Positions 1-15,787 of a stretch of DNA of 42,049 nt are shown one piece after another; position 1 is the first letter of the stretch, and every line of letters starts with the position of its first letter. Below the pieces are notes generated by a model. That model saw nothing but the letters and a program-made list of their open reading frames with translations. It was not told the DNA's origin and searched no databases. Position numbers and translations under genes: made by a program. Source of the DNA: a virus. The DNA lies in the IMG/VR virus record IMGVR_UViG_3300035701_000086, positions 1-42,049 of that record. One strand, 5' to 3'.

Positions 1-872
1 GTATCACAGTTAACGCAGTTACATACAATGCAGGAACAAGAGTTACAACAATCAACTTGACCTCATCTTGTGCGGCTGACAAAGTTATCAGAGCTGTTGT
101 TATGCAATTCCAATACAATCTGGAAGCGAATACTGATATCCCAGAGTTGAATATAACTATTGACAAAGATACAGTCGAAGCCAAGACACGAAAGTTGAAA
201 ACAGTGTGGACACCTGAATCTGCTCAAGATTTTAAGAGCTATCACGGGATTGATATTGAAGCCGAACTTACAGCTTTGATGTCCCAGGAAATTGCCCTTG
301 AAGTTGACAGAGAGATTTTAGCGGACCTTTTGAACGTAGGTTCTCAGATTACACATTCTTTTGATCAAGGCGCAGCGACAAACTACAACTACCTAGATAG
401 ACACGTTGCTCTTATGCAGAGAATCTTACTTGAGTCTAACAACATCATGAGAGACACACTTCGTGGCAAAGCGAACTGGATCGTTACATCTCCTGAAGTC
501 GCTTCTATTCTTGAAACACTGAAAGAATTCCGTCCTTACGGCGGTCAGGTTTTCTCTGGAGTTAATCCTTCAGGTATCGGAGCCCGCGGAACATTGTTAA
601 ATCAGATCGAAGTTTATGTCGATCCGATATTCCCGAGCAACAAGATCCTGTTAGGTTACAAAGGCGCATCAGTAATCGATTCTGGTTACTACTATGCTCC
701 TTATATTCCAGTTGAGCTGACACCTGTCGTTTATGATCCGTATGACTTCACTCCGAGACGTGGTTTACTTACAAGGTATGCCACAAAGTTGGTCGAGTTA
801 GGTCAACTTTTCTACAGAACGATCAGGATTCGTAATAGCGCATCTGACGAGAACTTTACAGTTCTTAGCTAA
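1..872 (+). CDS. Major capsid protein, T4 gp23-like (3' part)
   Basis: The reading frame (codons from base 3) is open to the left edge, so the gene begins outside the window and only about the last 289 residues are seen. The sequence resembles the C-terminal half of T4-type gp23 capsid proteins: the VEAKTRKLKTVWTPESAQD stretch followed by a conserved helix around DIEAELTALMSQEIALEVDR, and near the end VVYDPYDFTPRRGLLTRYA. In that family the protein forms the hexameric shell of the head. A TTG at 57 could be read as a start but has no ribosome site, and the coding frame clearly continues upstream of it. A terminator follows 28 bases after the stop, so this is the last gene of its unit. Thr is mostly encoded by ACA, matching the tRNA in this window. 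Confidence 0.9.
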   Translation, partial: ITVNAVTYNAGTRVTTINLTSSCAADKVIRAVVMQFQYNLEANTDIPELNITIDKDTVEAKTRKLKTVWTPESAQDFKSYHGIDIEAELTALMSQEIALEVDREILADLLNVGSQITHSFDQGAATNYNYLDRHVALMQRILLESNNIMRDTLRGKANWIVTSPEVASILETLKEFRPYGGQVFSGVNPSGIGARGTLLNQIEVYVDPIFPSNKILLGYKGASVIDSGYYYAPYIPVELTPVVYDPYDFTPRRGLLTRYATKLVELGQLFYRTIRIRNSASDENFTVLS

Positions 873-897
873 AAGGAATGAAAACGAATAAGTAATA

Positions 898-936
898 ATA
901 AAGGGGCTAATTCACAAAGTTAGCCCCTTTATTTTT
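898..936 (+). terminator. Rho-independent terminator after capsid gene
   Basis: Arms AAAGGGGCTAA (900-910) and TTAGCCCCTTT (920-930) pair perfectly over a 9-base loop and are followed by ATTTTT. It ends the capsid transcript before the next gene. Confidence 0.9.
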
Positions 937-962
937 AAAATGATATTTAAGGAGATATTTTT

Positions 963-1730
963 ATGGATAGAGGAACAGAGACCCAGATAGAATTAGAGAA
1001 AAATAAGGTTGATGATGCTATTGTTGAAAATGTTTTATCTTTAGGAAGTGGAGTTAATGGTACATTTTTGACAACAGACCCATATCAAGTAACAGTTCAA
1101 GATGGTATCGTCGTGGATATTTCTGCTCCTCCAGTTCCTCTTTTATCAAAGATAGGAGTTAATTTCTGTGTTGGCGCAGGTGCTCCTAATGGAGAGATTT
1201 CTGGAGCATATCCTGGCGGGTTATATCCTCAAGTTAATTGGAATAATGCAAATTACGGAATTGGATTACCCCCTGTGAGTGGTGATTTAATTCCATTAGC
1301 ACCATATGTTAATAGCAATGGTGCTTTAGTTCCTGCATTAACAATCAATACAACAAATCAGATGTGGCAGATGCCGGATAATATAGTTGGTGCCCCAAAG
1401 CATGGTGGTATTTATGTAGCACCTGGACTTGATAATCCTTCTGCTCCAGGCGATGCTGAATATGATGGTTGTGGAGGCGATACTTTCCCAACAGATATCG
1501 TATTGACAGTTACAAACATACCATATGCGAGTTATAAGGTGGCATTATTGATTGGTTGGTATGAGAATTCTTATAGATGGCATGAATTTGATCCCGCTAA
1601 CCCACCGACTATGAGTGGAGCAGATGATTGGGTAAGTAATCCATACTCTGCTACAATTGTAGGGAGCACATTTACGTTCAATGGTGGCGATGGTCATGGT
1701 GTTGCGGCTGTTCAAATCATAGAAGTTTAA
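963..1730 (+). CDS. Putative virion-surface protein with beta-sandwich domain
   Basis: 255 residues, preceded by AAGGAGAT. The first 19 residues (MDRGTETQIELEKNKVDDA) recur exactly in the next gene. Residues about 20-60 form a short linking module (GVNGTF, then VTVQDGIVVDI). Residues about 62-255 have the look of a secreted beta-sandwich domain: IGVNF at the start, a QVNWNNANYG segment, and later VTNIPYASYKVALLIGW. I recall similar patterns in extracellular PEP-CTERM-type proteins of Planctomycetes and Verrucomicrobia, but could not search. Position directly after the capsid gene suggests a head decoration or carbohydrate-binding role; this is inference. It could also be a tail-fibre-type protein. 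Confidence 0.6.
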   Translation: MDRGTETQIELEKNKVDDAIVENVLSLGSGVNGTFLTTDPYQVTVQDGIVVDISAPPVPLLSKIGVNFCVGAGAPNGEISGAYPGGLYPQVNWNNANYGIGLPPVSGDLIPLAPYVNSNGALVPALTINTTNQMWQMPDNIVGAPKHGGIYVAPGLDNPSAPGDAEYDGCGGDTFPTDIVLTVTNIPYASYKVALLIGWYENSYRWHEFDPANPPTMSGADDWVSNPYSATIVGSTFTFNGGDGHGVAAVQIIEV

Positions 1731-1743
1731 GGAGGATACAAAT

Positions 1744-1914
1744 ATGGATAGAGGAACAGAGACCCAGATAGAGTTAGAGAAAAATAAGGTAGATGATGCT
1801 GCAGCAGAGGCAGTTCTTGATGCTGGTGCTGGAGTTAATGGAACATTCGTGTCAGCAGATATGGTTCCACAAACAATTGTTGTTCAGAACGGGATTATTA
1901 TTAGCATAACTTAA
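1744..1914 (+). CDS. 56-residue paralogue of the preceding protein's N-terminus
   Basis: Starts at ATG 1744 after a strong AAGGAGGAT site. Its first 57 bases match 963-1019 with only two differences, both silent. The next part is a diverged copy of the same module (GAGVNGTF, then TIVVQNGIIISIT) and the protein stops exactly where the larger protein moves into its beta-sandwich domain. It therefore looks like the anchor module without a cargo domain. Likely a tandem duplication. It could compete with or space the full-length protein on its target, possibly the capsid. No known family recognised. Confidence 0.75.
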   Translation: MDRGTETQIELEKNKVDDAAAEAVLDAGAGVNGTFVSADMVPQTIVVQNGIIISIT

Positions 1915-1916
1915 AT

Positions 1917-2411
1917 ATGAACTTAGATAACTATGATTGGGGTTTTAGTGCCTTATGTTCAACCGTTAATGGAACTAACGGCATTAGAACCCCACTCACT
2001 ATATCTGATAGAATCAAGCAGGATATTTCAGGTAAGGTATTCTGCGATTTAGGTTGTGGTGAGGGAGATTTTGCTCTTTGTTGTGAGAGGTATGCTTCAC
2101 AAGTCATCGGAGTAGAGTTAGTTCCAGAAAGAGCTGAAGTCGCCAGAATGAAGGGTCTAAATGTCATTACTGGCGATATTTTGTTAAAACTGCCTGAAGC
2201 AGACGTATATTATTGTTGGGTAGGTGTTAAAGTTCGACAATTATACGATATGATACCTGTAGGCAAGATGATTATATTTGGATTCGGCGATCCTTTAGAT
2301 CTTAAACCATGGTTGGAAGGTTTGCCTGGAGTAATACATGAAACCATGGAATATGTAAGAGAAGGCATTAAAATGACCTTCAATATTTACAAAGTTAAAA
2401 AGGAGAATTAA
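1917..2411 (+). CDS. Class I SAM-dependent methyltransferase-like protein
   Basis: 164 residues, starting two bases after the previous stop, so probably translated by coupling. A Rossmann-type SAM site is visible: motif [14 protein letters not shown] at residues 41-53 and the acidic end of the second strand in [14 protein letters not shown] (about 63-76), followed by [19 protein letters not shown]. The protein is short compared with most class I methyltransferases and no target-recognition domain is seen, so the substrate (protein, small molecule or nucleic acid) cannot be named. No DPPY or PC catalytic motif typical of DNA methylases is present. Confidence 0.75.
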
Positions 2412-2415
2412 AGAA

Positions 2416-2610
2416 ATGGCACGTGGAAAGGTTAAGTGGTTCAGTAATCAGAAGGGTTTTGGTTTTATTACAGATGAGGAAGGTAAAGATATATTCGTCC
2501 ATTATTCAGGGATTGTAGCTGAAGGTTATAAAAGCTTAAAAACCGAACAAGAAGTAGAGTTTGAAGTTACAACTACAGAAAAAGGTTTACAAGCGATAGA
2601 CGTAAAATAA
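2416..2610 (+). CDS. Cold-shock protein (CspA family)
   Basis: 64 residues, the usual length for the family. The single cold-shock domain carries RNP1 (KGFGFI) and RNP2 (DIFVH) and the KWF start motif. Such proteins bind single-stranded RNA or DNA, melt RNA structure and can act as antiterminators. The gene follows the methyltransferase by four bases, with an AAGGAG site inside the end of that gene, and is closed by a terminator. Its place in a plus-strand unit behind virion genes suggests expression with them. Confidence 0.95.
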
Positions 2611-2621
2611 GAAGGCATAAT

Positions 2622-2656
2622 AATAGCGGCAAACTATTAAAAAATTTGCCGCTATT
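2622..2656. terminator. Bidirectional terminator hairpin
   Basis: Arms AATAGCGGCAAA (2622-2633) and TTTGCCGCTATT (2645-2656) pair perfectly over 11 bases. It lies between the convergent ends of the cold-shock gene and the minus-strand pair and can serve both; the T-run on the plus side (AATTTT) is modest. Confidence 0.8.
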
Positions 2657-2660
2657 AATT

Positions 2661-2849
2661 TTAACTATAGACGGAATCTTGACATTCTTGGCACATTCCG
2701 CTAATTTCGAATTCTTTTTTACTAATTTCATTTATCAAACAATTATTATCTACAGCTTTCCCGCATGTTGGGCATAGTCCTTTTTCAACTCTTTCTACAA
2801 AAGATCCTAAACCAGCTTGTTTCAACAGATTTTTCTTAGCTTCGTTCAT
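2661..2849 (-). CDS. Small zinc-ribbon protein (62 aa)
   Basis: Second gene of a two-gene minus-strand unit; its ATG overlaps the stop of the upstream gene in an ATGA arrangement. Two CxxC knuckles, CPTC (about residues 26-29) and CQEC (about 53-56), should bind one zinc ion. The rest is a short helical N-terminus. No family recognised; small zinc-ribbon proteins of this kind in phages often bind nucleic acid or host proteins, which is inference only. Confidence 0.75.
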   Translation of the reverse strand: MNEAKKNLLKQAGLGSFVERVEKGLCPTCGKAVDNNCLINEISKKEFEISGMCQECQDSVYS

Positions 2850-3100
2850 GCAAGTTCTCCTTTCTCTTCCTTCTTTTCTTTCTTTTCTTTCTTTGGACTG
2901 CTATCTGTCAAATCTAAATCTTGAACTAGAACAGATTCTAATCCTAATTCTTTTCTCTCGAATATTTCTACTCCTCTAGTTCTTACCCTAACAGTATATT
3001 TTTCAGCTACAATATCTATAGCATCAACATTATATTCTAACACTTTACTTCCGTCAGGAGCTTCAAAACCTGCTTCATTCTTCGATAAATATACTTTCAT
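2846..3100 (-). CDS. Hypothetical small protein (84 aa)
   Basis: First gene behind promoter 3128-3156, with an AAAGGAGGG ribosome site directly upstream of the ATG. The N-terminal part alternates strands (MKVYLSKNEAGFEAPDG) and the C-terminus is strongly charged, rich in Lys and Glu (about residues 68-82). No domain recognised. Strong promoter and ribosome site suggest high early expression. Confidence 0.75.
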   Translation of the reverse strand: MKVYLSKNEAGFEAPDGSKVLEYNVDAIDIVAEKYTVRVRTRGVEIFERKELGLESVLVQDLDLTDSSPKKEKKEKKEEKGELA

Positions 3101-3127
3101 TTTCCCTCCTTTCTTTATTCTACTTAT

Positions 3128-3156
3128 ATTATAACATGCATTTTTAAAAGTGTAAA
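3128..3156 (-). promoter_or_regulatory. Minus-strand sigma-70-type promoter P1
   Basis: On the minus strand: TTTACA (3156-3151), 17 bases, TATAAT (3133-3128). Start of transcription would fall near 3121, giving a leader of about 20 bases to the 84-residue gene. Same architecture as four other minus-strand promoters here. Confidence 0.85.
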
Positions 3157-3206
3157 CTACTATTTACTAAATAATATCAAATGAGTAAACTACTGAGTAA
3201 ACTACT
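3152..3206 (+). repeat. Three copies of GTAAACTACT
   Basis: Copies at 3152-3161, 3185-3194 and 3197-3206. The last two belong to a perfect tandem 12-mer, GAGTAAACTACT (3183-3194 and 3195-3206), which encodes the repeated SKLL at the ligase N-terminus. The first copy covers the -35 element of P1. A shared operator or a recent slippage duplication are both possible. Confidence 0.7.
3166..3173 (+). promoter_or_regulatory. Late-type promoter element ACTAAATA
   Basis: ACTAAATA stands 7 bases before the ATG of the ATP-grasp gene. If it works like the T4 late -10 box, transcription would begin within a few bases of the start codon, so the message would be nearly leaderless. Other copies of this octamer in the window lie 22-112 bases from their genes. 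Confidence 0.5.
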
Positions 3207-4200
3207 AAAAATCGGTTTGACATACGACTTAAAAGATGATTGGAAATTAGATAGCTCAGATCCTTCTGACGCAAGCGCAGAATTCGATTTACCAAAAACA
3301 ATAGACTCGTTAGAGAAAGCTTTTTCAAAGAAATATAATGTTCACCGTATAGGTAATGTTCACCGCTTGATGAACATTATCGGGAATATAGGGGTAGATG
3401 TAGTTTTTAATATAACTGAAGGAAGAAAAGGAAGGAATAGAGAATCACAAGTTCCGATGCTTCTAGAATTATTCAATATTCCGTATATTGGATCTGATGC
3501 TTTGACCATGGGATTGACACTAGACAAGGTTATCGCTAAAAGGATATTCATTTCAGAAGGAATACCAACTCCAGAATTTGACGTTATTGATGACGTGTCA
3601 GAATTTAAGTTTAATGACATAATCAAGTTTCCGATAATCGTGAAGCCTAGATACGAAGGTTCTTCAAAAAGCTTATCAAAAGATTCAATAGTATATTTTG
3701 AGAGTGATCTCAGACGGCAAGCGTTATTTATAAATCAGACATATAATCAACCAGCATTAATTGAAGAGTTTATAAGAGGAAGAGAGTTTACTGTAGCAGT
3801 TTTGGGTAATGATAATGCCTACACTCTCCCGATAATACAGATCCAGATAGACGGAAAGTTAGATTTGGGTAGTAGATTTTATGATTATTCAATGATACAA
3901 TCAGATGAATTGCAGTATATTTGTCCTGCTCAAATAGACATCAATCTAGAAAATAAGATAAATGAGCTTGCTTTAAGAGTCTATAAAGCTGTAGAATGTA
4001 AAGACTTTGGGAGAATAGATTTCAGAGTAGACAAGCACGATAACGTATACGTTTTAGAAATCAATCCTCTCCCTGGTTTAAACGACGTATTTTTAACGTT
4101 AGCTAATACTATGAATAAAGAATATGATGATATACTTCTGCAGATCCTTGAAGAAGGATTAAGAAGATTAAAAATGGAGGGTAAACTTGAGAAATTCTGA
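3181..4200 (+). CDS. ATP-grasp ligase, D-Ala-D-Ala ligase-like
   Basis: 339 residues. After a repeated SKLL start, IGLTYDL opens the N-terminal domain typical of ligases related to Ddl. ATP-grasp signatures follow: VKPRYEGSS (lysine 155) for ATP, IEEFIRGREFTVAVLG (about 194-209), and the metal-binding end GRIDFRVDKHDN to VLEINPLPG (Glu293, Asn295). These enzymes activate a carboxylate with ATP and join it to an amine. The substrates cannot be told, but the next gene, overlapping by 14 bases, is a radical SAM aminomutase, so a beta-amino acid may be one of them (inference). There is no ribosome site before the ATG at 3181. Confidence 0.85.
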   Translation: MSKLLSKLLKIGLTYDLKDDWKLDSSDPSDASAEFDLPKTIDSLEKAFSKKYNVHRIGNVHRLMNIIGNIGVDVVFNITEGRKGRNRESQVPMLLELFNIPYIGSDALTMGLTLDKVIAKRIFISEGIPTPEFDVIDDVSEFKFNDIIKFPIIVKPRYEGSSKSLSKDSIVYFESDLRRQALFINQTYNQPALIEEFIRGREFTVAVLGNDNAYTLPIIQIQIDGKLDLGSRFYDYSMIQSDELQYICPAQIDINLENKINELALRVYKAVECKDFGRIDFRVDKHDNVYVLEINPLPGLNDVFLTLANTMNKEYDDILLQILEEGLRRLKMEGKLEKF

Positions 4201-5302
4201 ATGGTATGATTGGAAATGGCAACTTAAGAATAGGTTTATGACTTTAGAGGAACTAGAAAAAGTTATAAATTTGACTAATGAAGAAAAGGAAGCAATTAGC
4301 CAAGTTGATTTTCCAATGTCTATAACACCGTACTTAGTTTCTCTTATAGATAAGGACAATCCTAATTGCCCTATAAGAAAACAATCTATCCCTTCAATGG
4401 ACGAGCTTTGTATATCTCCTTACGATATGGAAGATCCTTTAGATGAGGACAATGATTCACCTGTCCCTTTATTGGTCCACCGTTATCCTGACAGAGTGTT
4501 ACTTATGGCTACAGAAAGTTGTGCATCATATTGCAGACATTGCACTCGTAGGAGAAGAATAGGGTATAATAGGAATGAAGACCTGTCTAGGGCATATGAA
4601 TATATTAAAAGCAACAAAAGAATTAGGGATGTATTGATTTCTGGAGGAGATCCTTTAATATTAGATGATGATAGTTTAGAAGACATTGTAAGAAGCATTA
4701 GAGAAATTGACCATGTAGAAATGATAAGAATAGGAACTAGAGTCCCAGTTACTATGCCTATGAGGATAACAGATCAATTGATTTATACATTAAAGAAGTA
4801 TTCTCCTATATGGTTCAGCATACATTTCAACCATCCTAAAGAGATAACAAGAGAAGTTAAATATGCATGCAATAAGCTTGCTGAACACGGGTTCCCTTTA
4901 GGAAGCCAAACAGTTTTACTTAAAGGAATTAATGACAATGCTTATACGATGAAGAAGCTATTGTGCGAGTTGTTGAAGATACGAGTAAGACCATATTACC
5001 TTTACCATTGCGATCAGGCAAAAGGAATCAGTCACTTTAGAGTTCCATTAAGCCAAGGATTAGAGATAATCAAGAAGTTAAGAGGACATATCTCGGGTTA
5101 TGCAATTCCTACATATGTTATAGACATGCCTAAGGGAGGTGGTAAAATACCATTAATTCCTGAGTATGTTACTAAGATTAACGATTCTTATTTATTGCAG
5201 AACTATAAAGGTGAGACTTATATGTATAGTGACAATGAGGAAAATGAGCTAAAAAGTGACCTAGGAGGCACATTAAGGCACGTATCTGGTGCCCCCAGGT
5301 GA
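4187..5302 (+). CDS. KamA-family radical SAM aminomutase (lysine 2,3-aminomutase-like)
   Basis: 371 residues from a TTG at 4187 that is placed correctly behind GGAGGG; the resulting N-terminus WYDWKWQLKNR matches the family. The radical SAM cluster motif CASYCRHC gives Cys112, Cys116 and Cys119. The PLP lysine is present in MPKGGGKIP (Lys320), and the two aspartates that hold the amino acid in lysine 2,3-aminomutase have counterparts in YHCD (Asp276) and VIDMP (Asp313). It should move an amino group from the alpha to the beta carbon using SAM and PLP. Cotranscribed with the ATP-grasp gene. The last roughly 20 residues (from EENELKSDLGG) are an extra tail that overlaps the convergent gene. EpmB-like activity is an alternative. 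Confidence 0.9.
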   Translation: MRNSEWYDWKWQLKNRFMTLEELEKVINLTNEEKEAISQVDFPMSITPYLVSLIDKDNPNCPIRKQSIPSMDELCISPYDMEDPLDEDNDSPVPLLVHRYPDRVLLMATESCASYCRHCTRRRRIGYNRNEDLSRAYEYIKSNKRIRDVLISGGDPLILDDDSLEDIVRSIREIDHVEMIRIGTRVPVTMPMRITDQLIYTLKKYSPIWFSIHFNHPKEITREVKYACNKLAEHGFPLGSQTVLLKGINDNAYTMKKLLCELLKIRVRPYYLYHCDQAKGISHFRVPLSQGLEIIKKLRGHISGYAIPTYVIDMPKGGGKIPLIPEYVTKINDSYLLQNYKGETYMYSDNEENELKSDLGGTLRHVSGAPR

Positions 5303-5308
5303 CCTAGG
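5256..5308. repeat. Direct repeat GTGACCTAGG in a GC-rich patch
   Basis: GTGACCTAGG occurs at 5256-5265 and 5299-5308. The patch is visibly richer in G and C than its surroundings, covers the overlapping 3' ends of two convergent genes, and also contains AGGCAC twice. No T-run follows, so I do not call it a terminator. Confidence 0.5.
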
Positions 5309-5521
5309 CGGGTTAGTAGGTTGGTTGGATAGATGTTTTATTGTCTGAGTATACTTATCTATAACCTTATTTAAAATATTGTATATCCTGCATCTCCCGC
5401 AAATCTTAAGATCAGAGTTTTTATACAGAGTTTTTGGCGGTATATATTTCTCTTCTTCCGTAGAGCAGAAGAATATTTCTCCACATTTTTCACACTTTAA
5501 TTTCCATATATAAAGATGCAT
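5273..5521 (-). CDS. Small zinc-finger protein (82 aa)
   Basis: Preceded by AAAGGAGGAG. Two knuckles, CEKC (about residues 10-13) and CGRC (about 41-44), suggest one zinc site in the first half; an extra Cys lies at about 19. The C-terminal tail is proline-rich (QPTNPPRSPGG) and is encoded in the stretch that overlaps the radical SAM gene by 30 bases on the other strand, so the tail is probably not conserved. Lies downstream of the VWA gene with a 15-base gap, likely the last gene of the MoxR-VWA unit. Confidence 0.7.
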   Translation of the reverse strand: MHLYIWKLKCEKCGEIFFCSTEEEKYIPPKTLYKNSDLKICGRCRIYNILNKVIDKYTQTIKHLSNQPTNPPRSPGGTRYVP

Positions 5522-5536
5522 ATTCTCCTCCTTTTC

Positions 5537-7324
5537 TCAGATCATCCTATCAAAACCGTCAATTAGAACTTTCTCCATTTCTCTAGTGTTATTAACCAAT
5601 CTTCCCATCAGTATCTCTTTAAAGAACTTGTCTCCTGCTCCGAATACTGTGCTCTTTCCTAAATCTCCGATACCGATGAAGATATGTCTTTCATTCCTTG
5701 CATTATATTCTTCTAAGATTTTCTTCATTGAACTATCATCGAACTCTCCATCAGTAAAGACTAAGATAAACTTTCTATCTTTGACGTTGGAATTCTCTTC
5801 TAAAGTCTTATAAGCTTCTTCAAGAGCTGGTATTATTTCAGTTCCACCGCCAGAAAAGTTCAATGAGTATCTAGATTTCAAATCTTCCTCAGTGATCGTT
5901 TCGCTGAACGTCTTTATTATCTTGGGGCTGTCAGCGAACACTCCAACCTCGTATTCTATATTATATTGTTCTTTGGTTTTTTCAATTAATCTTGTCAAGT
6001 TAGTAACACACTCTAATAATACTTTACTTTTTGTTGATGATTCATTTTTCATGCTTCCAGAAACGTCAAGCAGCATCACTATTTTATTGTTGTATGTTTC
6101 TTTTATCCTGTCCTCAACAAATATATCGTTGTAGTCTTCTTCAGATTTAAATATCTTGTATATCTTATTTATATTTATTTTGCCTGAAGAGTTGTTGATT
6201 ACTTTTTTGTGCTCTAATCTTTTGAAGATTTCTTTCATGTTATCTTCAAAGTCAATTACTTCTTCTCTTTTAATCTTCCAATTATCGCTATTTTCTAGAC
6301 TCTTAAAACCGTTGAACATTTCTTGTATATCTTCTGAAGTCAATTCATTGTTAATCGCTGTAGAAACATCGACATCCTTTTTAGATAGTTCTTTTAAACT
6401 TTCAATTCCTCTTTCTACTTCTCTTTTTTCTCTTTCAACTTTCCACGACTTGGTATTCCTTATTGCTTTTTTTCTGGAAAGAGTTTTCTGTTCCTCTCTC
6501 ACTTTATTCATTTCTTCGCATATTTCTTTTCTTTCTTTCGAGTCTTTAGTTCCCCACATCTTTTTCTGATCTTTATTATATTTATCGTAGTTGTCGTTTA
6601 TCTTTTTTGTAAGTTCTTGTTCTTCTTTTTTAATTCCGTCTATTTTGTTCTGAAGGTCTTTCACCTCCTGTTTTTTACTTTCAATCTGATTATCAAAAAC
6701 TCCTTTTCCATCTTTGTCTTTTTTGCTGAGATTTTCTTTTACTAAATCTTTTACTAAATCTTTAAGACTAGATACCGAAGATTTTATATCGGCAGTTTTC
6801 TTAGCTCTTTTTAAGTCATCAATTATATTATCTATTTTAGTTTTATTTTTTGCCATTATCTCTTTCATCATTTCAGGGTCGAAATAAAATTGTTCAAATC
6901 CGACTCCGTAGAGATAAACGTGCTGGAGAACATTGATAAATTCTTCAGTCACAGCACTTTTATTCCATTGACGTCTCAAAAATACTGTCTCAACAAGCTT
7001 GCTGTAAATGTATCTTGAGTTCTCGTAATCTTTGAAAACTTTGTTGTCGATTCTAATATCTTCTGCAAGGTTGGTGCAAGTTTCTTGAATTTTATCATCA
7101 TACTTTTCATTAGCAATTTTTCTATACTCTTCTGAATTAGTATACTTTATGTGATAGCATTCGTGGATCGTCGCTCCAACAGTTGCAAGTAAATTCTCGT
7201 CTGGTAAAGATTTTGGAAGATATACATCTCTACCGTCAGTGTGAGGAGTGCATTTACTTTCGAAGTATACGTTAGTCTTCAGTTTTCCGGCGAAGTGCTT
7301 GGCGATGGTTTCGAAACTAGTCAT
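5537..7324 (-). CDS. VWA-domain protein with HExxH N-terminus, CobT/DUF2201-like
   Basis: 595 residues from ATG 7324, chosen because AGGAGGG at the end of the MoxR gene lies 8 bases upstream; an ATG six codons earlier overlaps that site. The N-terminal domain has His54-Glu55-Cys-Tyr-His58, the zinc-binding HExxH pattern of VWA-associated putative metallopeptidases. A long charged, coiled-coil-like middle (about 130-400) follows. The C-terminal von Willebrand A domain (about 415-590) has a complete MIDAS: DVSGS (420-424), Thr495 in GGGTE and Asp525 in TDGEF. Partners of this type work with MoxR-like ATPases, as CobT does with CobS, to remodel or insert metal into a target. The upstream gene is that ATPase. 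Confidence 0.85.
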   Translation of the reverse strand: MTSFETIAKHFAGKLKTNVYFESKCTPHTDGRDVYLPKSLPDENLLATVGATIHECYHIKYTNSEEYRKIANEKYDDKIQETCTNLAEDIRIDNKVFKDYENSRYIYSKLVETVFLRRQWNKSAVTEEFINVLQHVYLYGVGFEQFYFDPEMMKEIMAKNKTKIDNIIDDLKRAKKTADIKSSVSSLKDLVKDLVKENLSKKDKDGKGVFDNQIESKKQEVKDLQNKIDGIKKEEQELTKKINDNYDKYNKDQKKMWGTKDSKERKEICEEMNKVREEQKTLSRKKAIRNTKSWKVEREKREVERGIESLKELSKKDVDVSTAINNELTSEDIQEMFNGFKSLENSDNWKIKREEVIDFEDNMKEIFKRLEHKKVINNSSGKININKIYKIFKSEEDYNDIFVEDRIKETYNNKIVMLLDVSGSMKNESSTKSKVLLECVTNLTRLIEKTKEQYNIEYEVGVFADSPKIIKTFSETITEEDLKSRYSLNFSGGGTEIIPALEEAYKTLEENSNVKDRKFILVFTDGEFDDSSMKKILEEYNARNERHIFIGIGDLGKSTVFGAGDKFFKEILMGRLVNNTREMEKVLIDGFDRMI

Positions 7325-7325
7325 A

Positions 7326-8459
7326 TTAAAGTCCCTCCTCATCTTCGTTTACTTGCTTAATTCTTTTGCATTCTTCTGGCATTTCGGCGACCAGCTCAGG
7401 GAATATACCGAAGGCTAAAAGCAACATTGCCTTTTTGTCTTCAGCATTGTTATTTACCATGATGCTGTCAAGAAATCCCCAATGAAGCGCTTGAGACAAT
7501 GAGAATCTTTCGTTCAGAAGATGGGTGATACTCTGCAGATCCCTGATTGTAATCAGGAACTTTTTGTTTTGCTTCTTGCAGATATCCTTAGTCTCTTTGT
7601 AAAACTGAAGCAATTTTCTTTTCAAGCTTTTATTATCCATCTGGATAATCTGATCGAGCTCATTATCACTAAAGTCGTCTAATACTTTAGTCATAAACCT
7701 TTTAATCAATGCTTCATTCATCTTATTATTACCTATATATAAGCTGTTGCGGAAGTTTCCCGTAGCGTATATATAGCACTGAGGATGCTGCTCTATAACT
7801 TTTCCTAACTCTTTAATGAATATTCTTTTCTCTTGTAAAAGCTCGTGCAGTTTGAAGAAAATCTCAGGGGTGGCCGATGGAAGTTCATCCAAGATTATCA
7901 AAGATGGTTCTTGTAAAAACTTGACGAATAATCCTGGTTCGTATGTTGCAGTCGCATTTACGAAATTGACCTTGTAAAGCAAATCATTGAAGTTCAAGCT
8001 AGCGTCAATCTGAACTAACAGCATAGGAAGTTTGTGCTTATAAGCTAAATATCTTCCCATTGCAGTTTTACCGGTTCCAGTATCTCCAACTACGAAGATC
8101 GGTTTCCTTTTTTCTACAGGGAGTTTCATGATTGATTCAACTTGGCCTAAAACGTCTTTTCTTTCAAGGTAATTTGTTTCAATGTTTTTCGGGATGAAAT
8201 CTCCAAGTGAGCTGTCATCTGATGCTGGAGATAAATCTACTTCTTCGCGAGAAATCGTTGTCGAAATCGATACTGGAGAATTCACGGTCTTTCTTTTCAT
8301 TTCCCTTTCAATTTCTTCGATTCTCCATCTGATAACCTGTTCAGTTCTTTCTACATTAAATGTCTGCTTGATTGATGATACGATTTGTTTCGGCGTGTTG
8401 CTATCCTTCATTTTCTTTATCATTAACATCTCTTCGTCTGTCCATCTTTTTCCTGGCAT
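7326..8459 (-). CDS. MoxR/CobS-like AAA+ ATPase with SANT-like N-terminus
   Basis: 377 residues from ATG 8459, preceded by AAAGGAGGG; a GTG at 8504 would extend it by 15 residues but lies only a couple of bases from the predicted transcription start and has no ribosome site. Residues 1-55 (KRWTDEEMLMIKKM onward) look like a Myb/SANT-type helical DNA- or protein-binding domain. Walker A is GDTGTGKT (125-132), Walker B is LIILDE (187-192), and an arginine-rich sensor region follows. MoxR-type ATPases act as chaperones together with VWA proteins, and that partner starts two bases after this stop. T4-like phages often carry CobS-like ATPases of unknown role. Confidence 0.85.
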   Translation of the reverse strand: MPGKRWTDEEMLMIKKMKDSNTPKQIVSSIKQTFNVERTEQVIRWRIEEIEREMKRKTVNSPVSISTTISREEVDLSPASDDSSLGDFIPKNIETNYLERKDVLGQVESIMKLPVEKRKPIFVVGDTGTGKTAMGRYLAYKHKLPMLLVQIDASLNFNDLLYKVNFVNATATYEPGLFVKFLQEPSLIILDELPSATPEIFFKLHELLQEKRIFIKELGKVIEQHPQCYIYATGNFRNSLYIGNNKMNEALIKRFMTKVLDDFSDNELDQIIQMDNKSLKRKLLQFYKETKDICKKQNKKFLITIRDLQSITHLLNERFSLSQALHWGFLDSIMVNNNAEDKKAMLLLAFGIFPELVAEMPEECKRIKQVNEDEEGL

Positions 8460-8512
8460 CCAGCCCTCCTTTGTTTTGAGCTTTCGCTCTAGTTTAACTG
8501 CCACTCATATAC

Positions 8513-8541
8513 ATTATATCATGAATGTGCATATTTGTAAA
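8513..8541 (-). promoter_or_regulatory. Minus-strand promoter P2
   Basis: TTTACA (8541-8536), 17 bases, TATAAT (8518-8513), with an A-rich stretch upstream. The spacer ends in TGCACATTCATGA, identical to P4. It drives the MoxR-VWA unit. The leader contains a small hairpin, GAGC-GAAA-GCTC (8489-8478), just before the ribosome site. Confidence 0.85.
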
Positions 8542-8575
8542 CTTTTATTTTTGTATTTTGGGATGGTTTGGAGGT

Positions 8576-8631
8576 GCGGGCTATTCTAACAAGTAAAAGA
8601 AAGGAGGTAAAAACCTGTTAAAATAGCCCGC
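8576..8631. other. Long hairpin without T-run
   Basis: Arms 8576-8591 (GCGGGCTATTCTAACA) and 8616-8631 (TGTTAAAATAGCCCGC) pair over 16 bases with one mismatch. On the plus strand the loop contains AAAGGAGGT, a perfect Shine-Dalgarno sequence with no start codon behind it. It lies between the end of the phosphoesterase gene and promoter P2; no T-run on either strand, so RNA processing or 3'-end protection is more likely than simple termination. Confidence 0.6.
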
Positions 8632-8640
8632 TGGGACGAA

Positions 8641-9531
8641 CTAGGCTGATGCGTGTATATCTACGTAAAAACAATCTCTTATAAAATTACTATTTTCTCT
8701 TCCGTCATGTATCTTTCTGTGGATCCTTCTTGGAGTCATTTCAATCTTAATAACTCCGATATCAGTTGGAGGATACGCTCCTGCAGATACATAGCTTGCT
8801 TTGCCAGGTTCGTATCCTTTTAAGAATGATCCAGTCCTTCCAAGAAGTATCTTTCTGTTCGTGATAGTGAGACCTCCACCGCCTTCAGATAATCTCATAC
8901 GAGAACTATCATAAACAAATTTCTGGTGGTCATGGGCCATAAGATAAATATCAGCATCGCCTATTTTTCTCATAGCTTCTACAGAATTAACCGAACTTCC
9001 TGCAGTTCTTCCTCCACCTCTTCCATGATGGGCATAGATGTCTAAAGCATATTTTTTATTTCCATACCCGAAAGATAGTCTAATAAAGGATGATTTACCA
9101 AGGAACTTACATCCCATCTTTTCACACATCAACTGAGTAGTTGACATTCCAGTTTGAAGCATGCCAAAATGGTTACCTTCAATTAGACCAATTAGCCTTC
9201 CTTTCATGAATGATATTTCTTTAATGAACTTTTCAACAAAATCGTTGTAAACTCCGTCGAGTCTGCTTAATGTTGTGTCGTGCAGGGCGGCTTGAGAGAG
9301 ACCTTTTCTTTCTGACGTGCTTGCAATATCGTCATAGTCTCCCATACCTAAGAAGTAGCATCTTTTCTTCTTTTTAGCCCACTCGCAAAAACTCTTCCAC
9401 TTATCCACAGCGCACAAGTCTGCGAATCGATGAACATCCCCAAAGGGGATTAAGTAAATCGGCTCTTCAAGTTTGTCGACGGTTATCTCAACTTTATGAG
9501 TTGTGAAAGTCTGTTCTCCATTAACAACCAT
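8641..9531 (-). CDS. Calcineurin-like metallophosphoesterase
   Basis: 296 residues from ATG 9531, preceded by AAAGGAGAAA; an upstream in-frame ATG at 9588 would add a poly-A-encoded hydrophobic stretch inside the terminator region and is rejected. The two-metal phosphoesterase motifs are all there in order: GDVH (31-34), GMGDYDD (62-68), EGNHF, an AHHG, and AHDHQ. Such enzymes hydrolyse phosphomono- or diesters, including nucleotides and nucleic acids. Nothing in the sequence picks the substrate. The gene sits between a terminator upstream and the hairpin at 8576-8631 downstream; a promoter of its own is not obvious. Confidence 0.85.
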   Translation of the reverse strand: MVVNGEQTFTTHKVEITVDKLEEPIYLIPFGDVHRFADLCAVDKWKSFCEWAKKKKRCYFLGMGDYDDIASTSERKGLSQAALHDTTLSRLDGVYNDFVEKFIKEISFMKGRLIGLIEGNHFGMLQTGMSTTQLMCEKMGCKFLGKSSFIRLSFGYGNKKYALDIYAHHGRGGGRTAGSSVNSVEAMRKIGDADIYLMAHDHQKFVYDSSRMRLSEGGGGLTITNRKILLGRTGSFLKGYEPGKASYVSAGAYPPTDIGVIKIEMTPRRIHRKIHDGRENSNFIRDCFYVDIHASA

Positions 9532-9588
9532 ATTTATGTTTCTCCTTTGTAAGATTAATAGCATAAAAAATAAAAAAATTAAAAACAT

Positions 9589-9624
9589 AAAAAAAAAGGC
9601 CAGAAGCTTTTGGCTCCTGGCCTT
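9589..9624 (-). terminator. Rho-independent terminator (minus strand)
   Basis: Arms AAGGCCAG (9596-9603) and CTGGCCTT (9617-9624) with an inner AGC/GCT pairing. Read on the minus strand the hairpin is followed by a run of eight T. It ends the transcript of the 190-residue gene. Confidence 0.9.
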
Positions 9625-9640
9625 ATGCGTTTCTCTTTTT

Positions 9641-10213
9641 CTATTCGTCTCCCAAAGTTTCTTTCTTGTATTTGGAAGTAATGTAACCTCTCGTCGCTAG
9701 ATTTAAATCAGTCACTTCTGAAAATATGAAAGGTCTATTCCGTATTTTCGTCATGAACTGACTTTTTTCTCCGCCTTTAAACGTTCCTACCGGTAACTTT
9801 TGGTCAAGTCCTGGAAAATCGCTATCATTCGTCCCGTAGAGGTAAGCGTTTTCATTTCCTTTTTCTTTGATAAGAACAGAATCCTGCTCAAAATATTTAC
9901 CTAATTTTATTATTCTGCCAATAAAATTTGGATCTGACTTTAAATTTACAACGAAAAAGGAGTTTTCTTTTACTTCTCTTTCTTTAGGAGAACCATACCC
10001 TTCTATAAAAGAACCGTCAGTCGCTGTTACACCACATCCAACTTCCAATAATGAACCTTTGAGCTTTTTGTTTCTTTCCAGGTTCTGATTTTTTGGATAG
10101 CTTCCCCTGAAAGCTGTAATGATGGCACAATCGTGGTTTGATATATGTTGCCATATCCGTGATAAATTAGACTCATTGACGTCTTGTTCTCTAAGAATGT
10201 CTTTTAATTTCAT
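9641..10213 (-). CDS. Conserved phage-type hypothetical protein (190 aa)
   Basis: ATG at 10213 behind AAGGAGGGAAAC. Recognisable elements, in order: SRIWQHISNHDCAIITAFRG, a region around VTATDGSFIEGYG, SFFVVNL, a YFEQDSVL segment, YLYGTNDSDFPGL and IRNRPFIFSE. I recall this arrangement from proteins in many T4-like and marine phages, with no function assigned. It has its own transcription unit: a hairpin (10256-10288) separates it from the gene upstream, an ACTAAATA element stands just before it and a terminator follows, so it may be expressed late, unlike its minus-strand neighbours. Confidence 0.75.
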   Translation of the reverse strand: MKLKDILREQDVNESNLSRIWQHISNHDCAIITAFRGSYPKNQNLERNKKLKGSLLEVGCGVTATDGSFIEGYGSPKEREVKENSFFVVNLKSDPNFIGRIIKLGKYFEQDSVLIKEKGNENAYLYGTNDSDFPGLDQKLPVGTFKGGEKSQFMTKIRNRPFIFSEVTDLNLATRGYITSKYKKETLGDE

Positions 10214-10246
10214 TGTTTCCCTCCTTTCTTATTACCTTTCTTATTA

Positions 10247-10254
10247 TATTTAGT
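10247..10254 (-). promoter_or_regulatory. Minus-strand ACTAAATA element
   Basis: ACTAAATA on the minus strand, 34 bases before the ATG of the 190-residue gene and immediately after a hairpin. It is the only copy I found placed before a minus-strand gene. The following TATAAT (10247-10242) could also act as a -10 box, but no TTTACA lies 17 bases upstream. Confidence 0.45.
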
Positions 10255-10255
10255 T

Positions 10256-10288
10256 GGAGCAGGATGCAACAACATCACACCCTGCTCC
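10256..10288. other. GC-rich hairpin between minus-strand genes
   Basis: Arms GGAGCAGG (10256-10263) and CCTGCTCC (10281-10288), with inner GATG/CATC pairing. No T-run follows on the minus strand. It separates the 281-residue gene from the ACTAAATA-driven gene, so it may end or protect the upstream message. Confidence 0.6.
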
Positions 10289-10300
10289 CCACCGCCGCTT

Positions 10301-11146
10301 TTATAATTCTGCTAAACCAGTTCTTGCTTCAGTTGCTTTAGCTTTCGGAGAAGGTTTGCTTTCGATGATTGGCATAACGAATTCTGAATTTTCCCAATCA
10401 ATTTTCTGCTTCGCAACCTTCATCGTTAAAGCAAAGCACTGTTTACCATTCACATCTTTAATTACAGGTCTGATCAACCCATAATATTTGTTGTAAGAGT
10501 TTCCAGAGGTAACATATACCACTGCAAACTTGTTCTTTTCGACGAGATATTTCTTCGTGAACTGATACAGAGAATAAATTGCATCCTCTTCTTCTGCCCA
10601 AACTTTATACATTCCCTGGCCAGATTCGAGCATCCAATCCTCATATTCGTCCATATCTTTGAGTGCCAAAACATTGAACTCGTCCGTCTTCTTGTATTTC
10701 TCGACGTATGTTTCTTTTCCATCAACTACCTGGTAAGCTTTCACTTCATCTTTATTTATTAGCTCACCGTTAGCCGTCGTCGGATATCTATTTTGAGTCA
10801 CTACGTTGCTCAGATTAGGATTGAACCATCCCTCTTTGTCGTCAGCATCAGTTTTAATGATTTTACCATCAACCCACATCTTATTTCTAGTTTCCTCACC
10901 TTTAGCATTTCTGTAAATTACCGGATATTCCTTATCAACATCCCTAGAAGCAAATTTCTGCCATCTTACAGGGACATCAATAGAGAAGTTTTTGTCCGAG
11001 TAAACAAATCTCGCTTTATATCTGATGCTACCACGAGCTGCATATCCGCCTTTTTCCTGATCTACTTTAACCACCTTTACCACTTCAGCAACGACTTCCT
11101 TAGCACCTTTACACTTTTCAACAACCACTTTTACTGCTTTTGCCAT
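10301..11146 (-). CDS. Hypothetical protein (281 aa), probably abundant
   Basis: ATG 11146 is chosen because AAAGGAGGGAAC sits directly before it; an in-frame ATG at 11176 has no such site. The first 35 residues are rich in Lys, Val and Ala (KAVKVVVEKC, then EVVAEVVKVVKV). The body is mixed alpha/beta with many aromatic residues (VDVPVRWQKF-like, EDWMLESGQGMYKVWAEEED, NSYNKYYGLIRPVIKD) and no motif I recognise. It has its own strong promoter (P3). A role in DNA binding would fit strong early expression, but nothing in the sequence proves it. Confidence 0.7.
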   Translation of the reverse strand: MAKAVKVVVEKCKGAKEVVAEVVKVVKVDQEKGGYAARGSIRYKARFVYSDKNFSIDVPVRWQKFASRDVDKEYPVIYRNAKGEETRNKMWVDGKIIKTDADDKEGWFNPNLSNVVTQNRYPTTANGELINKDEVKAYQVVDGKETYVEKYKKTDEFNVLALKDMDEYEDWMLESGQGMYKVWAEEEDAIYSLYQFTKKYLVEKNKFAVVYVTSGNSYNKYYGLIRPVIKDVNGKQCFALTMKVAKQKIDWENSEFVMPIIESKPSPKAKATEARTGLAEL

Positions 11147-11199
11147 GTTCCCTCCTTTTTTAGGCCTGTCGGCCATGGTTTAATTTAACTTTCAATTAT

Positions 11200-11228
11200 A
11201 TTATATCACTACTTTGTCATTTTGTAAA
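11200..11228 (-). promoter_or_regulatory. Minus-strand promoter P3
   Basis: TTTACA (11228-11223), 17 bases, TATAAT (11205-11200), with AAAATAAAAG directly upstream. It lies in the last codons of the preceding gene. The leader holds a short hairpin, GGCC-GACA-GGCC, before the ribosome site. Confidence 0.85.
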
Positions 11229-11701
11229 CTTTTATTTTCACCAATTTGGGCCTCATGGATGAATTTTATGGGTGCTGGATTTAGCATTCTTTTCAACTTA
11301 TGTTTCTCTTTATTCGTAAGTAAAAAGAACCCCTTATTCTTGTTGACTGAATAATTCTTATAACGATAAGCGAAATATTCATTTTTGTGATTTTCATTTA
11401 AGAACTTCCTTAATCTCTGCATCTCTACATGAGTAAACAAACCAATATACCTTTTTTTAGTTCTGCTTTTACTGATGTTAGATATAAAGAAGTTCTTCCT
11501 AAAATGTGACAGAACCTTAGTCGCTCTTTTCATTTCTCCGCAAAAAGAACTTTTAGTCTTTTCTCTTTCTATTACTTTATCTAATCTATGCTTTTGATAA
11601 TATTTCCTATATGTTTCAATTCTGGCAAGTTTTTGGTTCAGTTTCCTAATTCTTTTAGATTGGCTGTTTATTCTATTCGTCAACTGTTTAAGTTTATCCA
11701 T
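11201..11701 (-). CDS. Basic coiled-coil hypothetical protein (166 aa)
   Basis: ATG 11701 abuts the stop of the 37-residue gene and uses its AGGAGG as ribosome site. The protein is very basic; residues about 1-45 are a helical, Lys/Arg-rich stretch likely to form a coiled coil, and the middle (about 60-140) stays rich in Lys, Arg, Tyr and Phe. Nucleic-acid binding is plausible from charge alone. No family recognised. Last gene of the P4 unit. Confidence 0.65.
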   Translation of the reverse strand: MDKLKQLTNRINSQSKRIRKLNQKLARIETYRKYYQKHRLDKVIEREKTKSSFCGEMKRATKVLSHFRKNFFISNISKSRTKKRYIGLFTHVEMQRLRKFLNENHKNEYFAYRYKNYSVNKNKGFFLLTNKEKHKLKRMLNPAPIKFIHEAQIGENKSLQNDKVVI

Positions 11702-11815
11702 TTATCCTCCTGTTAAAAATTTTTCGTAATCGCCTCTTCCTCTAAAGTCCAGACACCTCGGACAACGTTCTTCTTTAGTTTTCTTTTTCCCACAAATTTT
11801 ACATTTATTCTTCAT
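11702..11815 (-). CDS. Mini zinc-ribbon protein (37 aa)
   Basis: ATG 11815 behind AAAGGAGGGG; its stop touches the ATG of the next gene. Two knuckles only three to four turns apart, CKIC (residues 5-8) and CPRC (18-21), make a minimal zinc ribbon; the rest is basic (GKKKTKEER) and ends LTGG. Tight packing with both neighbours and a strong ribosome site support a real gene in spite of its size. Confidence 0.7.
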   Translation of the reverse strand: MKNKCKICGKKKTKEERCPRCLDFRGRGDYEKFLTGG

Positions 11816-11952
11816 TACCCCTCCTTTATCTCTTCACAATATAGATTAGCATCTGCCACAAGTTGTCTCAACGCTTCCAATTCATTTTCTGCTTCAATTA
11901 TTTCTTCGCTAGTTTCAACTCCGTTAGCTATGTCTCCAACTCTAAATTTCAT
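11815..11952 (-). CDS. Small acidic hypothetical protein (45 aa)
   Basis: ATG 11952 (a second ATG directly upstream at 11955 is also possible) preceded by GGAGGT, which lies within the end of the upstream gene. Starts MKFRVGDIANG and continues as an acidic helix rich in Glu (EEIIEAENELEALRQLV). Its TAA shares one base with the next ATG, so it is part of the tightly coupled P4 unit. No function recognised. Confidence 0.65.
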   Translation of the reverse strand: MKFRVGDIANGVETSEEIIEAENELEALRQLVADANLYCEEIKEG

Positions 11953-11956
11953 CATT

Positions 11957-12271
11957 TTACCTCCACGGATCTAGTTTTGGATTCGGTATGAGTTTCCAAC
12001 TCTTCTCGTAACCGATTGCATCTTTAGGAAATGCGACTGATATCGCTTTATTTTTCAGAGTTTTTAGAGCCCCTTTCCAATCTTTACCTTTGATTTTCTT
12101 TTCGATAACTGAATTCGTTTTTTCATCGACGTCTGCCATATACATTACAGCATGCCTTTGCCTGTTGCAATTAGCTCTTAAGAACAAGATGAACTTTCTT
12201 TGCTTATCAGCTTGCCTTTCATCAAAATAACTCTCAATTCCGTGAGCATCAGCGATCCCGTATTTTACCAT
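11957..12271 (-). CDS. Hypothetical protein (104 aa)
   Basis: Overlaps the end of the 87-residue gene by 23 bases and ends with GGAGG inside its last codons, which serves the next gene. The start reads MVKYGIADAHGIESY, and the middle FILFLRANCNRQRHAVMYMAD resembles a strand-turn-helix, followed by a lysine-rich helix. Similar small proteins occur in phages, but I can name no function. Confidence 0.7.
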   Translation of the reverse strand: MVKYGIADAHGIESYFDERQADKQRKFILFLRANCNRQRHAVMYMADVDEKTNSVIEKKIKGKDWKGALKTLKNKAISVAFPKDAIGYEKSWKLIPNPKLDPWR

Positions 12272-12512
12272 CGTATCTCATCCCCCTTTCTTTATATTTT
12301 TTCAACTCCTTTTCGTAACCAATCACCGGTTGACCTTTTTCTCCGAGTTTCATCTTTAATAGAGAAATCTTCGCGATAAAGTATCTCAGCCATAAAGATT
12401 TACTCTTTTTCAATGCCAACGAATATTCGGAGCAAATCTTAACTAATTCATCTGCTGATTTGTTCTTTAACCAATCTTCAGACAATTCTTCTATAAATTC
12501 CCAATCAAGCAT
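12249..12512 (-). CDS. Hypothetical helical protein (87 aa)
   Basis: First gene of the P4 unit, with AAAGGAGGTG before the ATG. Predicted mainly alpha-helical: WEFIEELSEDWLKNKS, then DELVKICSEYSLALKK and a Leu/Ile-rich helix. Both this protein and its downstream neighbour contain IGYEK near the C-terminus. No domain recognised. Confidence 0.7.
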   Translation of the reverse strand: MLDWEFIEELSEDWLKNKSADELVKICSEYSLALKKSKSLWLRYFIAKISLLKMKLGEKGQPVIGYEKELKKYKERGMRYDGKIRDR

Positions 12513-12540
12513 TTTTCACCTCCTTTCAATATCTGATGCA

Positions 12541-12569
12541 ATTATATCATGAATGTGCATTTTTGTAAA
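12541..12569 (-). promoter_or_regulatory. Minus-strand promoter P4
   Basis: TTTACA (12569-12564), 17 bases, TATAAT (12546-12541). The spacer's last 13 bases are identical to P2. It drives five packed small genes ending at 11201. Confidence 0.85.
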
Positions 12570-12603
12570 CTAAAATTTCGTCTATTTTGATGTATGTCAA
12601 TAG

Positions 12604-12611
12604 ACTAAATA
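12604..12611 (+). promoter_or_regulatory. Late-type promoter element ACTAAATA
   Basis: Stands 22 bases before the ATG of the first neck gene, back to back with minus-strand promoter P4. It would drive the neck and tail-terminator genes up to the terminator at 15705. Confidence 0.65.
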
Positions 12612-12633
12612 TAACATAAGAGGTAATAGTTTG

Positions 12634-13485
12634 ATGACTGATCTACAAAAACTATCTAGGATGAGACAATTAGTTTCAGAGCCTATCCCTGACACAGACT
12701 GGGTATTCAATCCAAAAGTTTCGAATAAATCAAATATCCTTCAAAGACTTAGAGAAGAAATAAGGCCTGACTGGTTGAGCAAAGAGAAGTATGAAGAACT
12801 AAAAAGATTCATTATTACTATGTTAGGTGCTCCAGCTGTGAAAGTTGAATTGACAGACGAACAGTTACAACAATCAATAAATTTAGCTTTAGAAGTTTAT
12901 ATAAGATATTTGGGAAGAGAAAGATATGCTTATACGGTTGCAAAATCTCATCAATCAGAATATGAGTGGCCTTCAGACTGCAAAGAAATATTCCATGTAT
13001 TCTTTAGACCTGCAACTCTTTCTGCTTTGGGCAATATCAACCAAGCGATGTTTTCAGATTTTTATTTGTTAGCGACAGACCTTGCTGTAGATATTTATGA
13101 AAGTCCTGTAACGTTCTGGTGCTACTTGGCTTCAAGAGAAATGCTAGAGAAAACATACGGAGTCTGGGGAAGTTGGGAGAATATTGATTTTAGAAGGTTT
13201 AGAATTTATCCGATACCATTCAAAGACCAGATTATAGGTATATGGTATAAATCAAATGACTTAGATTTTGCAGAAGAAAAGTTCAATTTATTAAGAAAGC
13301 TTGCTCTCGCTTATGCTAAACAGATTCTTGGTAGGATTAGAAGTAAATATGCTAATATCCCAGGAAGCAATAATAACATGTTGACGCTTGATGGAACGGC
13401 ACTTCTTGCGGAAGGTGCTCAGGAAGAAAAAGACATTACAACATATATAATGCAGCTGGTACCGTTAAGGTTCGAGATTTTCTAA
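12634..13485 (+). CDS. Neck / head-tail connector protein, T4 gp13-like
   Basis: 283 residues; ATG 12634 has AGAGGT nine bases upstream (a TTG one codon earlier is less likely). After a polar start, the stretch ELTDEQLQQSINLALEVYIRY (about 72-92) matches the helix found at the start of many head-tail connector domains, followed by PVTFWCYLASREMLEKTYG and a long C-terminal helix. Position as first gene before a gp14-like, a gp15-like and the sheath gene follows the T4 order 13-14-15-18. Such proteins sit between portal and tail. Identification rests on order and general pattern, not on a catalytic motif. Confidence 0.6.
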   Translation: MTDLQKLSRMRQLVSEPIPDTDWVFNPKVSNKSNILQRLREEIRPDWLSKEKYEELKRFIITMLGAPAVKVELTDEQLQQSINLALEVYIRYLGRERYAYTVAKSHQSEYEWPSDCKEIFHVFFRPATLSALGNINQAMFSDFYLLATDLAVDIYESPVTFWCYLASREMLEKTYGVWGSWENIDFRRFRIYPIPFKDQIIGIWYKSNDLDFAEEKFNLLRKLALAYAKQILGRIRSKYANIPGSNNNMLTLDGTALLAEGAQEEKDITTYIMQLVPLRFEIF

Positions 13486-13494
13486 GGAGATAAA

Positions 13495-14094: not shown

Positions 14095-14098
14095 AAAT

Positions 14099-14410
14099 AT
14101 GCGTGAATTTATCATAGATGATTCAAAAAGTGCCAACAATATAAAAGAATCTTTAGCTAACTTCCAAAAGGAATTGTTTAAGGATTTAAGAGTATTAGGT
14201 GAACAAGTAGCAACTTCTGAAGCTGATTATATTAAGACTACCATCGAAAATACTCATAGAATGAAATATAATGTATTCGTAAAGAAAGAAAAGGACGGAT
14301 GGATAATATTTCCAGATAGGTTCGATGTCGCGACTCAAGAAGAATTCGGGTTATCATTCCCTATTTGGAGAAAGCTTTACCAGGATTATAAGGTAGCTGA
14401 AAGAAAATGA
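14099..14410 (+). CDS. Hypothetical protein in neck operon (103 aa)
   Basis: ATG 14099 lies four bases after the previous stop; no ribosome site is seen, so coupling with the upstream gene is likely. Residues about 10-60 are helical and polar; the C-terminal half, VFVKKEKDGWIIFPDRFD, is beta-like. Ends by overlapping the next start in ATGA. In this position other phages have small tail-completion or neck factors, but I recognise no family. Confidence 0.65.
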   Translation: MREFIIDDSKSANNIKESLANFQKELFKDLRVLGEQVATSEADYIKTTIENTHRMKYNVFVKKEKDGWIIFPDRFDVATQEEFGLSFPIWRKLYQDYKVAERK

Positions 14411-15434: not shown

Positions 15435-15482
15435 GTTAAAAAAAATTAAAAATATGCAATATATTATATAAGGAGAATTAAA

Positions 15483-15683: not shown

Positions 15684-15704
15684 TCCCGGGAATCTTATAC
15701 CCGC

Positions 15705-15741: not shown

Positions 15742-15743
15742 TA

Positions 15744-15751: not shown

Positions 15752-15787
15752 AAACATAGAGAACATAAACGCATAATCATGAGTTAG

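Follow-up and report, generated by a model that had tools for sequence, protein, structure and literature searches.

Why a T4-like phage should carry genes for an aminomutase and an ATP-grasp ligase, where these genes came from and what their products would make are the questions raised by the locus analyzed here. The window, that is, the whole stretch of 42,049 nucleotides, is a 42-kb virus record of a T4-like phage (IMGVR_UViG_3300035701_000086), and the locus within it is laid out as follows.

Positions 3181 to 4200, plus strand: Ddl-fold ATP-grasp ligase (P0001, 339 aa), with an ATG start and a TGA stop (PF07478, E 3.6e-36).
Positions 4187 to 5302, plus strand: KamA-family radical SAM / PLP aminomutase (P0002, 371 aa), with a TTG start (TIGR00238, above the cut-off).
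Positions 4187 to 4200, plus strand: 14-base overlap of the ligase and KamA genes, from the ORF coordinates.
Positions 4176 to 4180, plus strand: Shine-Dalgarno sequence GGAGG, 6 bases 5' of the KamA TTG, read directly from the sequence.

A first-pass annotation of this DNA had described an aminomutase gene overlapping a ligase gene by 14 bases. Both frames were found open at these coordinates and the overlap was confirmed; the two-gene pair is real, but the ligase comes first and the aminomutase second, not the aminomutase first. The overlap is likely to couple the translation of the two genes. The TTG start of KamA is credible, because it is preceded by the GGAGG sequence and because homologues can be aligned from residue 3–5 on, the N-terminal EWYDWKWQ being conserved.

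We compared the aminomutase with protein family models and known structures. It scored 369.8 bits on TIGR00238 (KamA family radical SAM; cut-off 199.2) and stayed below the cut-offs of TIGR03820 (AblA, lysine 2,3-aminomutase; 485.1 bits, cut-off 525.4), TIGR04368 (glutamate 2,3-aminomutase; 440 bits, cut-off 650) and TIGR03821 (EpmB; 242.5 bits, cut-off 369.3). Lysine 2,3-aminomutase was nevertheless the best equivalog, ahead of the glutamate model, the arginine aminomutase model (410 bits) and EpmB, and the sole PDB match was 2a5h, the clostridial lysine 2,3-aminomutase (E 1e-129, 347 residues alignable). The cysteines of the CxxxCxxC motif (C112, C116 and C119), D313 and the PLP lysine K320 were invariant in both KamA alignments, which contained 12 and 21 sequences, and D276 was invariant in the smaller and almost so in the larger; all six residues are present as the first-pass annotation had reported. 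R121, which aligns with the carboxylate-binding arginine of the clostridial enzyme, was invariant as well. D276 and D313 align to aspartates 293 and 330 of 2a5h (C. subterminale), which bind the lysine side-chain ammonium. Since both are kept, lysine is the likely substrate of KamA. A different substrate (ornithine, arginine or a lysine derivative) is possible, given the score below the AblA cut-off and the missing C-terminal Cys-rich Zn-binding extension, which is present in the Clostridium sequence L012 and absent from the window KamA and the other aligned relatives.

The ligase was analyzed in the same manner. It matched Ddl structures at E 4e-30, and its AlphaFold model (pLDDT 91.4) had only Ddl enzymes as top Foldseek matches (8evx, 4c5a and 1iow), yet it scored under every NCBIfam Ddl cut-off (186.2 versus 243 and 162 versus 245.65). 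When the structure of E. coli DdlB (1iow, a reference that carries Y216F) was mapped onto it, K97, K144, S150, E187, R255, D257, E270 and N272 were found to be kept; the ATP/Mg and transition-state residues of the ligase are K116, K155, S161, E202, R278, D280, E293 and N295, the last four being the catalytic Arg, Asp, Glu and Asn of Ddl. The D-Ala-binding residues, in contrast, are replaced (E68 by R85, K215 by M238, Y216 by I239, H280 by V303 and S281 by F304). The loss of the D-Ala pocket despite retained catalytic residues indicates that the enzyme is not a Ddl, and the pocket residues together with the missed cut-offs rule out a plain Ddl or a vancomycin-type ligase. In an alignment of 22 members, D30, E34, R85, R87 and E88 were invariant and specific to the family, which suggests a dedicated ligase pocket. 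Judged from sequence and model, the protein is a predicted amide- or peptide-forming ligase of the Ddl type with altered specificity.

A genome scan with KamA detected a bacterial contig (L010) on which a ligase (52% identity), a second ligase (40%) and KamA (61%) stand one after another, as well as a contig from Clostridiaceae (L011) on which KamA follows the ligase. In the uncultivated phylum to which L010 belongs, the ligase was found at 45–56% identity, nearly full length, in 67 of the 193 sampled genomes. KamA came after the ligase in all 36 genomes inspected, often with a second ligase in between (36/36, all different: 30, five more and L010 itself). The intervening ligase, found in most genomes of the phylum, is 38–41% identical to the window ligase; the two-gene form seen in the window occurred in six sampled genomes (L094, L096–L100). 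The genes are mostly spaced by –29 to +20 bases and usually by –4 to +20, the most frequent arrangement being an overlap of 4 bases ahead of KamA. The cassette KamA is usually the sole full-length, strong KamA-family match in those genomes, and one such protein scores 530.9 bits on TIGR03820, above the cut-off of 525.4. In Bacillota, 48 of 200 genomes matched the ligase with an E value of at most 1e-35, and KamA adjoined the ligase in about half of the 21 loci read (two of them reversed), so that the pairing there is a looser version. The strength of the structural matches of both proteins and this adjacency in dozens of bacterial genomes indicate that the pair is not due to chance.

The surroundings of the bacterial cassette are housekeeping genes (purH, folC, an EF-G paralogue, a YchF C-domain, mnmE, an M20 hydrolase and PAC2), and two alternative functions can be weighed against them. 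The first is remodelling of the cell wall or envelope, in which a dipeptide made by the ligase, for example of D-Ala or another amino acid with beta-lysine, would enter peptidoglycan precursors and alter the host wall. The Ddl fold accords with this idea, as do the DapE/ArgE-like M20 hydrolase, whose gene precedes the cassette by a few genes in many members of the phylum, and an LD-carboxypeptidase S66 homologue near the reversed pair of a second phage described below. However, the five D-Ala pocket residues of the E. coli enzyme are not kept, and the nearest bacterial neighbours are purH, folC, EF-G, YchF-like and mnmE genes with no mur genes among them; we consider a wall function unlikely. 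The second is attachment of the beta-lysine made by KamA to a protein or translation factor such as EF-P, the comparison drawn in the first-pass annotation. Beta-lysine is the product of EpmB in E. coli, and EF-G paralogue, YchF-like and MnmE genes near the bacterial cassette would fit a role in translation. EpmA, however, is a LysRS paralogue, whereas the partner here is an ATP-grasp enzyme, and Ddl-type ligases act on small molecules; moreover, the window KamA reaches 242 bits on the EpmB model against a cut-off of 369 and 485 on that for lysine 2,3-aminomutase, and the bacterial cassette KamAs also fall below the EpmB cut-off. The EF-P/EpmB pathway was rejected on these EpmB scores, and protein modification of this kind is very improbable. 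A product carrying a beta-amino acid is still the best inference from the earlier interpretation.

We then considered the origin of the genes from two phylogenetic trees, which were built by a quick method and carry SH-aLRT values as their sole support. The window ligase fell within the clade of the phylum's first ligase (22 rows, support 100), beside genome G016 (95), and four true Ddls formed a separate clade (98). In the KamA tree, the window sequence and the KamAs of that phylum were sister groups (90). Because both trees point to one donor lineage, the two genes were probably acquired together, and the pair is most likely a captured bacterial cassette rather than a phage invention, to judge from these sequence comparisons. 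Of the earlier proposal, the intact and functionally coupled enzyme pair stands, upheld by the bacterial adjacency and the second phage. Two further genes of the window resemble those of the cassette phylum's genomes, namely the cold-shock gene (2416–2610, plus strand; 71–79% DNA identity) and tRNA-Thr (up to 88% identical); both are conserved genes, and their matches are hints that the host may belong to that phylum. When positions 1–20000 of the window were compared with the phylum's genomes, no spacer-like match providing a CRISPR link to a host was seen among the matches listed, which comprised the cassette, the cold-shock gene and the tRNA only.

The cassette lies inside phage DNA. The gp23 capsid gene (57–872) stands to its left, as do a methyltransferase gene and the cold-shock gene, and to its right are T4-like genes for a gp15-type sheath stabiliser, the tail sheath, the tail tube, the baseplate hub and wedge and the tail fibre; no host junction was observed. 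The GC content of the cassette is 0.34–0.36, compared with 0.35 for the phage. An assembly chimera with a bacterial contig is unlikely, as the housekeeping genes around the bacterial cassette are missing here, the GC content matches that of the phage and phage genes flank both sides. Among named records, the capsid protein was best matched by that of a 595-kb uncultured phage (47%), which makes it probable that the window covers a small portion of a large genome. Several other genes of this phage were also recorded. A VWA protein and an AAA ATPase (CobT/CobS or MoxR-like) are encoded to the right of the cassette on the opposite strand (5537–8504, minus strand). An S-adenosylmethionine lyase, which degrades SAM, is encoded at 9641–10213 (minus strand; PF23780, E 1.4e-12) of the phage that also has the SAM-dependent aminomutase. 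The product of 19430–19891 (plus strand) fuses a phage PGDYG-like N-terminal domain to an acyl-carrier-protein domain (PF00550, E 5.9e-12) in which aspartate replaces the pantetheine serine (DDL versus DSL), and which would therefore be unable to carry the usual arm. A NAD-dependent nucleotide-sugar epimerase/dehydratase is encoded among the tail genes (20321–21307, plus strand).

It might also be supposed that the genes are passenger cargo, swept up from a host and kept neutrally or transiently with no role in infection. The clear bacterial donor lineage in the trees is consistent with this, and the cassette was not found near the capsid gene in two more distant T4-like relatives. Against it, both frames are intact with all catalytic residues kept, the GC content is close to that of the phage, and the pair recurs independently in another phage. 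In addition, the end branches of the window genes are long in both trees (0.64–0.81), which suggests long residence without decay. Passenger cargo is accordingly a decidedly unlikely explanation. Among close relatives of the phage (L206–L208 and L211, with capsids 84–100% identical), the contigs end at the capsid gene, and a scan with the adjacent genes for the VWA protein and an exonuclease, meant to detect relatives whose contigs overlap, found none.

The search for the pair elsewhere that the first-pass annotation had called for was thus successful in bacteria and in one unrelated phage, though not near the capsid gene of the distant T4-like relatives. The ligase sequence by itself found no match in a viral scan, but a scan with an alignment did find viral loci. 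In IMGVR_UViG_3300037011_000258, a KamA of 397 aa is directly followed by a ligase of the window family (34% identity), beside genes for DNA polymerase A and a terminase-like protein; given the reversed order and the position of this ligase elsewhere in the tree, the association is regarded as independent. In two relatives of this phage (L121 and L123), the ligase adjoins terminase and portal genes, and KamA is absent. The terminase-like ORF in the phage with the reversed pair (L122, 7151–10369; 1072 aa) is interrupted by an intein splicing domain.

An alignment scan of viral contigs with KamA yielded 61 loci, nearly all of which lack an adjoining ligase (about 58 contigs; L002–L005, L130–L190). 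Among the contigs with KamA as a single gene are phage genomes of 462–735 kb, and KamA is also found in phages of Pseudomonas and Vibrio, with the annotation lysine 2,3-aminomutase in two of the latter. Phage KamA hence does not need the ligase as a partner, and in the contigs without it beta-lysine by itself, or some other reaction, must be enough. Some phage KamAs (L007, L008, L179 and L186) stand beside QueC-like 7-deazaguanine synthases, with a GNAT acetyltransferase as a further neighbour in the Vibrio phages; these KamAs are possibly linked to DNA modification. Radical SAM enzymes resembling KamA take part in the hypermodification of thymidine in phages, and together with the QueC-like and GNAT neighbours of this other KamA clade in Vibrio phages and related contigs, such a role leads to the hypothesis that the amino acid rearranged by the window KamA is one that will be, or already has been, joined to bases of the phage DNA. 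However, the four sequences of the QueC/GNAT-phage type that are on the tree, L186 not being among them, form a separate clade (100), whereas the window KamA groups with the bacterial cassette KamAs, and no base-modification gene was found among the window ORFs scanned, the window being a minor part of the genome. We regard hypermodification as highly unlikely for this locus.

On balance, we favor the reading that this T4-like phage has captured a working cassette for the synthesis and ligation of a beta-amino acid, leading from lysine through beta-lysine to an amide, and we hold the functional coupling of the ligase and KamA, taken by itself, with greater confidence than the reading as a whole. 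In the proposed pathway, KamA, using SAM, PLP and a 4Fe-4S cluster, would most likely produce beta-lysine (3,6-diaminohexanoate) from L-lysine, and the ligase would most likely activate a carboxylate as an acyl phosphate and convert it into an amide. Beta-lysine would be the shared intermediate, joined either as the acid or as the amine to a small partner, and the product would be a dipeptide-like small molecule. As to its use to the phage, we can guess that the product may serve as a polycation or solute, or that a host metabolite may be sustained during infection.

We searched the literature for a pair of an aminomutase and an ATP-grasp or D-alanine ligase, or for its product, and found no description; likewise, no paper in the library searched was found to treat KamA as a phage trait, of which there are about 60 contigs with the gene. 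A broader and more tentative proposal is that the cassette represents an undescribed bacterial pathway to a peptide or an amide with a beta-amino acid in it, that this pathway is nearly core in one candidate phylum and has been captured by phages at least twice, and that beta-lysine is recurrent in large phages, perhaps as a polycation for DNA packaging or in DNA or protein modification. If true, a conserved and seemingly undescribed beta-amino-acid ligation cassette, which phages take over, would be added to bacterial metabolism, and phage-made beta-lysine would become a testable question. The larger interest lies in the conserved bacterial cassette and in how often KamA occurs in large phages; it is moderate for the phage itself.

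Comparison with known systems places the locus as follows. Window KamA shares the CxxxCxxC motif, the PLP lysine, the two aspartates and the carboxylate arginine with lysine 2,3-aminomutase (KamA/AblA, 2a5h, Clostridium subterminale), but stops shortly past the PLP-lysine domain and has no Cys-rich Zn-binding tail, and its partner is an ATP-grasp ligase, whereas that of AblA is the beta-lysine acetyltransferase AblB. The window ligase has the fold (TM 0.75/0.83), the ATP and Mg residues and the transition-state arginine in common with Ddl (1iow), although the D-Ala-binding residues are replaced and D30, E34, R85, R87 and E88 are its own invariant positions. With the beta-lysylation of EF-P by EpmA and EpmB, the common element is a KamA-family enzyme making beta-lysine, and the ligase fold is unrelated. 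The solo KamAs of large phages (LR756500, LR756501, Pseudomonas vB_PpuM and Vibrio vB_VcorM) are 37–55% identical to window KamA, but lack an adjoining Ddl-like ligase and fall into different clades of the KamA tree. The ATP-grasp/ATP-grasp/KamA cassette of the phylum of G003 (SCPY01000064.1) has genes 53–61% identical to those of the window in the same order and with tight spacing, although a second ligase mostly stands in between there and the surroundings are housekeeping genes.
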